From Deltaproteobacteria bacterium (GTDB lineage Bacteria > Desulfobacterota > Deferrimicrobia > Deferrimicrobiales > Deferrimicrobiaceae), in contig JAKAHC010000005.1 in NCBI GenBank assembly GCA_021815305.1, positions 62,001 through 126,000 on the forward strand: DNA of 64,000 nt, in the 5' to 3' direction. Under the pieces are notes generated by a model. The model had not been told where the DNA came from. It saw only the letters and a program-made list of their open reading frames with translations, and did not search any database. Below, piece by piece: positions 58,557 to 58,964 of the stretch (positions within the stretch are counted from its first letter, which is position 1; each line of letters starts with the position of its first letter). The position numbers and the translations under genes are program-made.

Positions 58557-58964
58557 CTACCGTTTTTCCACGGGGTAGTTCCTCCGGACCCACTCGTTCC
58601 AGCCGCCTCTCAGCGCGTATACCTTGCCGTACCCCATTTCGATCAGTCGGAGCGCCACCCGGGCGCTCGTGGCCTCCTGGAGTCAGGAACAGTACAGGAC
58701 GAGGTTCTTCCCCTTCGGGTACTTTCCCGCCCACGCGGAGACGTTCCGCGGATCTTCGACCACCGCGCCGGGGATCCCGGCGTCCCCCGCATCCGGCCGG
58801 ACGTCGATGACGGCCACATCGGCACGCCCGAGGAAGGATCTGAGCGTCTCGGGCTCCATCCTCGGCACCTCCGCCGCGCAGGCGGAAACCGACCAGGCCG
58901 CCGCCGCGAGAAACGCGGCCACCGCAAGAAAACAGCGCGGCGCATCGCCCATGCCCCTGTTCAT
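58557..58964 (-). CDS. Rhodanese-like lipoprotein, predicted selenoprotein (in-frame UGA at codon 94)
   Basis: The frame from ATG 58964 (GGGAGGG site upstream) encodes a signal peptide with lipobox-like VSAC (C29) and a rhodanese fold (DVAVIDVRPDAGDAG). It then reaches NLVLYCS followed by UGA (58683-58685). Reading through continues in frame with LQEATSARVALRLIEMGY, KVYALRGGWNEWV, to a TAG at 58557. Homologous single-domain rhodaneses have YCSCP-EATSARVA at this place, so UGA stands where Cys is usual. A hairpin lies 14 bases after the UGA. Total 135 residues including Sec94. The sulfurtransferase would act in the periplasm. A normal stop, giving a truncated pseudogene, is the alternative. 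Confidence 0.8.
58650..58668 (-). promoter_or_regulatory. Candidate bacterial SECIS hairpin
   Basis: In the minus-strand RNA, GAGCGCC and GGCGCUC form a perfect 7-bp stem with loop CGGGU, beginning 15 bases after the UGA. The loop lies 22-26 bases downstream and carries G residues, within the range for bacterial SECIS elements. Confidence 0.6.

Follow-up and report, generated by a model that had tools for sequence, protein, structure and literature searches.

Rhodaneses with a predicted Cys-x-Sec (CxU) motif have already been catalogued. In the catalogue table of PMC13188914, the entry for NF041203 reads 'Rhodanese-like domain-containing protein form 3, CxU, 1 Sec', and in PMC9312934 the same example accession appears as COG0607 form 2, CxU. 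In both papers, CxU rhodaneses are placed among the predicted selenoproteins of unclear function. The locus analysed here lies in a stretch of 64,000 nucleotides, hereafter the window. Its protein scores 135.7 bits against NF041203, for a cut-off of 115 (128.2 bits in a six-frame search), and 44.5 bits against the Pfam Rhodanese profile PF00581, for a gathering threshold of 22.2. On these profile scores, the window protein is a member of the already catalogued CxU rhodanese selenoprotein family NF041203.

The rhodanese gene, its UGA codon and the selenocysteine machinery

The gene occupies positions 58557..58964 of the window on the minus strand, from an ATG (58964-58962) to a TAG (58559-58557), and would encode 135 residues if the UGA is decoded as Sec; its annotation is based on the translation, the two profile matches and the UGA orthologues. 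A plus-strand reading of the same interval gave no sensible protein, and the gene was therefore assigned to the minus strand. The sequence-only reading had the coordinates right and left the strand unstated. The minus-strand translation is MNRGMGD...KNLVLYCS-U-LQEATSARVALRLIEMGYGKVYALRGGWNEWVRRNYPVEKR, followed by the stop. Codon 94 (58683..58685, minus strand) is the sole in-frame interruption, within the motif LYCS-U-LQEATSARVA, and corresponds to the predicted Sec of Cys92-Ser-Sec94, the relatives having UGA at the same aligned residue. Between this UGA and the TAG, 41 codons encode normal rhodanese sequence (...EATSARVALRLIEMGYGKVYALRGGWNEW...). Both the in-frame UGA at codon 94 and the 41 further rhodanese codons had been claimed beforehand, and the translation returned the former at 58685-58683 and the latter with the same count. 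Automatic gene callers tend to end such genes early, at the UGA.

A search of 395 genomes of the phylum gave 83 matches over the NF041203 cut-off. A hand count gave an in-frame TGA in 74 of these 83, no stop in eight and only a TAA in one. Of the 24 genomes in the family to which the window's genome belongs, 16 have UGA at this site in a rhodanese of the type, broadly taken. Twenty-one of the 24 encode SelA, and the three genomes devoid of it have no UGA rhodanese, which is consistent, the sample being small. In the loci that were fetched and read, belonging to many genera and families, the UGA falls at the identical aligned residue. The alignment at codon 94 suggested by the sequence-only reading thus has UGA in most relatives and Cys in the CxC homologues, with Ser or Ala in some divergent paralogues. 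CxS or SxS paralogues without the hairpin (L120-L124) occur alongside UGA copies in the same genomes, and are likely divergent or degenerate copies.

The codons following the UGA have a dN of 0.10 and a dS of 0.72 relative to the nearest relative, and a pN/pS of 0.31-0.87 in more distant pairs, where 37 codons give little power. These rates indicate purifying selection on the part of the gene that follows the UGA. A frame lost beyond the UGA, with neutral drift, was also looked for; the downstream frame is intact and conserved in the homologues. A genuine stop, or a loss-of-function mutation leaving a decaying pseudogene or a truncated protein, has only the standard reading of UGA in its favour, and is made extremely improbable by the recurrence of the same UGA at the same codon in many genera and families, by the selection on a conserved downstream frame and by a hairpin that covaries at silent sites (see below).

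As to the decoding machinery, SelA (538.7 bits) and SelB (301.9 bits) are matched in the window's own genome, which measures 2.77 Mb and is 97% complete; it also has a tRNA-Sec scoring 74.1 bits, over the Rfam cut-off, with anticodon UCA (TCA in DNA). Its SelD gene (G000:C5:107630-108625, plus strand, locus L049) is itself a predicted selenoprotein gene, its in-frame UGA lying within SSCAG-U-ASKLG (SSCAG-U-ASKLGQG in its longer form). All the components that the sequence-only reading had proposed to search for (selA, selB, selC and selD) are thus present. Since SelD carries its own in-frame UGA, this genome is expected to decode UGA as Sec. A formate dehydrogenase, as classical selenoprotein, was sought in the genome and none was found over the cut-off; SelD fills that role. 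Reading of the UGA as another amino acid, by a reassigned code or by ordinary suppression, is scarcely credible against the presence of this Sec machinery, the Cys found at the UGA position of CxC homologues and a SECIS specific to the UGA members.

The SECIS-type hairpin and the N-terminal signal

A SECIS-type hairpin, GAGCGCC/CGGGU/GGCGCUC, lies inside the coding sequence (58650..58668, minus strand) and was analysed by folding, conservation, covariation and codon shuffling. Its first base is the 15th past the UGA, with 14 nt between them, and folding confirmed the perfect 7-bp stem, the G-rich loop and the position, 15 bases downstream, that had been read from the sequence. The bSECIS model, as given in PMC13188914, has a loop of 3-9 nt, a stem of 4-16 bp, a G in the first two loop positions, a distance of 16-37 nt from the UGA and an energy of at most -7.5 kcal/mol. 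The window hairpin falls within all these bounds, with a 5-nt loop (CGGGU), a 7-bp stem, a distance of 21 nt from the UGA to the apical loop and an energy of -12.4 kcal/mol. A search of the whole window with Rfam at gathering thresholds returned no match, which is no argument against a SECIS.

For comparison, 48 non-redundant UGA genes with a gap-free region after the UGA were retained. Each of the five inner stem pairs is formed in 47 or 48 of these genes, while the two outer pairs are variable (34/48 and 16/48), and a G is present in the first two loop positions of all 48. Positions 21 and 33, silent third positions of a Ser and an Ala codon, form C-G in 24 genes and U-A in 22, and have the highest mutual information among 946 column pairs, with the caveat for covariation that the GC content differs between the genomes of the two groups. 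Agreement with position 21 was found in 96% of the genes for its partner and in 52-69% for the other third positions. In the Cys, Ser or Ala homologues that were read, the hairpin is missing, only 1-4 of the seven stem pairs remaining.

GC-rich genes do form some hairpins, and in neighbouring genes an equal stability occurs in 12 of 6418 20-nt windows, so that the structure might be a by-product of protein and codon constraints in GC-rich DNA rather than a SECIS. This is nevertheless very unlikely: 46 of the 48 genes have either C-G or U-A at the two silent positions, which switch jointly, the homologues without UGA retain no more than four of the seven pairs, and, among 5000 samples drawn with the synonymous codons of neighbouring genes, an equal local stability was reached in 0.26% and all seven pairs in 1.6%.

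A SECIS thus remains the preferred reading of the hairpin. The identity of the gene is supported by the recurrence of the UGA in relatives, the preserved frame beyond it, a hairpin that covaries at silent sites and a full set of Sec machinery. The gene very probably encodes an exported single-domain rhodanese selenoprotein with UGA 94 decoded as Sec under the direction of the SECIS. It had been argued from the sequence that the replacement of Cys by UGA, the conserved flanks and the SECIS-like fold are hard to explain as a mutation; the conserved UGA, the purifying selection and the covariation uphold this view. The window gene is, in this respect, one more well-supported example of a rhodanese that contains Sec.

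The hydrophobic N-terminus of the window protein and of its relatives points to an export signal of about 30 residues (58866..58964, minus strand), and export of the window rhodanese is likely. The earlier designation as a lipoprotein fared less well. By eye, VSAC29 does fit a lipobox, but its Cys is absent from the aligned relatives and unique to the window protein, a lipobox-like Cys being found in a few distant members of the family. Lipidation is therefore possible, not predicted, and doubtful, export being the better supported part.

Relatives with two UGA codons and other UGA rhodaneses

The window gene itself is of the CxU type. Twelve relatives, from six families of the phylum (L087, L093, L096, L107 and L142-L149), have a UGA at both positions 92 and 94 (YUxU). 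They possess one hairpin, the same as in the CxU genes, located after the second UGA. A quick tree suggested about eight changes between CxU and UxU, this tree being poorly resolved and including some spurious rows.

A second UGA rhodanese of the window's genome carries an N-terminal VTT/DedA-type membrane domain (G000:C13:17927-18271, minus strand; L039, L075, L116). It has the motif FYCSUPGEATSAS, a score under the NF041203 cut-off and its own conserved hairpin, and further genomes of the family likewise have VTT/DedA-rhodaneses with UGA, for example at loci L026, L028, L037 and L040. We regard it as probable that, within the family of the window protein, a second Sec has taken the place of Cys92 on several occasions, producing a UxU (potentially diselenide) rhodanese in which one SECIS is shared by two UGAs, one codon apart, and that the second Sec rhodanese of the window's genome is tethered to a VTT/DedA membrane domain.

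For NF041203, the table of PMC13188914 (2026) gives only CxU with one Sec. Neither the UxU variant nor the VTT-rhodanese fusion was found in that catalogue table or in the open-licence literature, which is weak evidence of novelty, and no open-licence literature joining selenoprotein, DedA and rhodanese was found. The UxU version of the site is thus apparently unlisted, and both it and the VTT fusion may be less known. The recurring change from CxU to UxU represents a natural experiment on the use of selenium in sulfane-sulfur chemistry, and the UxU relatives also bear on how a single SECIS can serve two closely spaced UGAs.

A third type was observed as well: a short, apparently non-exported UGA rhodanese with the motif FYCAUPTEATSAG (L030, L036, L041, L044, L071 and L077), whose stem is different from the window hairpin, yet SECIS-like.

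Active-site loop, proposed chemistry and described rhodaneses

An AlphaFold2 model, built from two sequences (mean pLDDT 76), has a rhodanese fold in which strand 87-91 is joined to helix 97-109 by a loop of residues 92-96. Foldseek matched solved rhodaneses, the closest being of the sulfurtransferase type. In an ungapped alignment to 6mxv, position 94 falls on its loop Cys; the alignment to EanB disagrees, and puts Cys92 on the equivalent Cys. In the model, the CxU pair would thus sit in the catalytic loop, with a nucleophile (92 or 94) that differs by alignment. The 12 relatives with UGA at both positions support residues 92 and 94 being both redox-active.

In the mechanism that we propose, the SelA/SelB/SelC/SelD system would decode UGA 94 as Sec, guided by the SECIS hairpin just downstream, and Cys92 and Sec94 would act together in the active-site loop as a redox/sulfane-sulfur pair. 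One residue would accept sulfane sulfur (from polysulfide, thiosulfate or persulfide) or become oxidised, the other would resolve it via a Cys92-Sec94 selenenyl-sulfide bond, and sulfide would be released, or the sulfur handed on, outside the cytoplasm. Taken alone, this sulfane-sulfur chemistry has, in our estimation, about an even chance of being correct. A purely redox function competes seriously with it and is, in our view, quite possible, if a little short of even: the selenoprotein would act in thiol/peroxide redox or in metal/oxyanion binding, and not in sulfur transfer or persulfide reduction. The CxU motif is indeed similar to redox pairs known from other selenoproteins, the CxxGxR signature of many sulfurtransferases is absent from the loop CSULQEATS, and there is a weak, below-cut-off similarity to the chromate-resistance ChrE rhodaneses. 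Against it, the nearest solved structures are sulfurtransferase-type rhodaneses.

Comparison of the family genomes for a conserved operon partner near the window gene revealed none, and no selenium or sulfur partner was recognised. The region is partly syntenic within the family, with HEAT-repeat and HD-domain proteins and an amino-acid-type ABC transporter. In three other genomes of the phylum, a gene for an amino-acid-permease-like membrane protein is found directly upstream of the UGA rhodanese (L132:2433-3758, L133:2031-3314 and L134:3694-4941, with a Pfam match for the L134 copy only); no such gene was seen beside the window gene.

Among the described systems, the closest is NF041203 itself (rhodanese_LYCAU, 'rhodanese-related (seleno)protein'), with which the window protein has in common the CxU motif, the single Sec and the short exported rhodanese. 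The window protein has LYCSULQEATS where the family name has LYCAU, and otherwise differs in nothing of substance. TsoB (NF045694, form 5), a rhodanese/DsbD fusion-like selenoprotein, likewise has Sec in a rhodanese domain and gives a weak match of 23.9 bits. Its cut-off of 805 bits is far above this score, however, and it differs by its UxxxxU motif and its fused DsbD-like part. Finally, the solved rhodaneses 6mxv, 3nhv (BH2092) and Alr3790 (3ilm, 3k9r) match the window protein in fold (E of about 5e-7 to 2e-6, TM 0.64-0.68), and 6mxv in sequence too. None of these three is a selenoprotein, and the aligned loop of 6mxv holds a single Cys (CGGGFRS), whereas that of the window protein holds the CxU pair.
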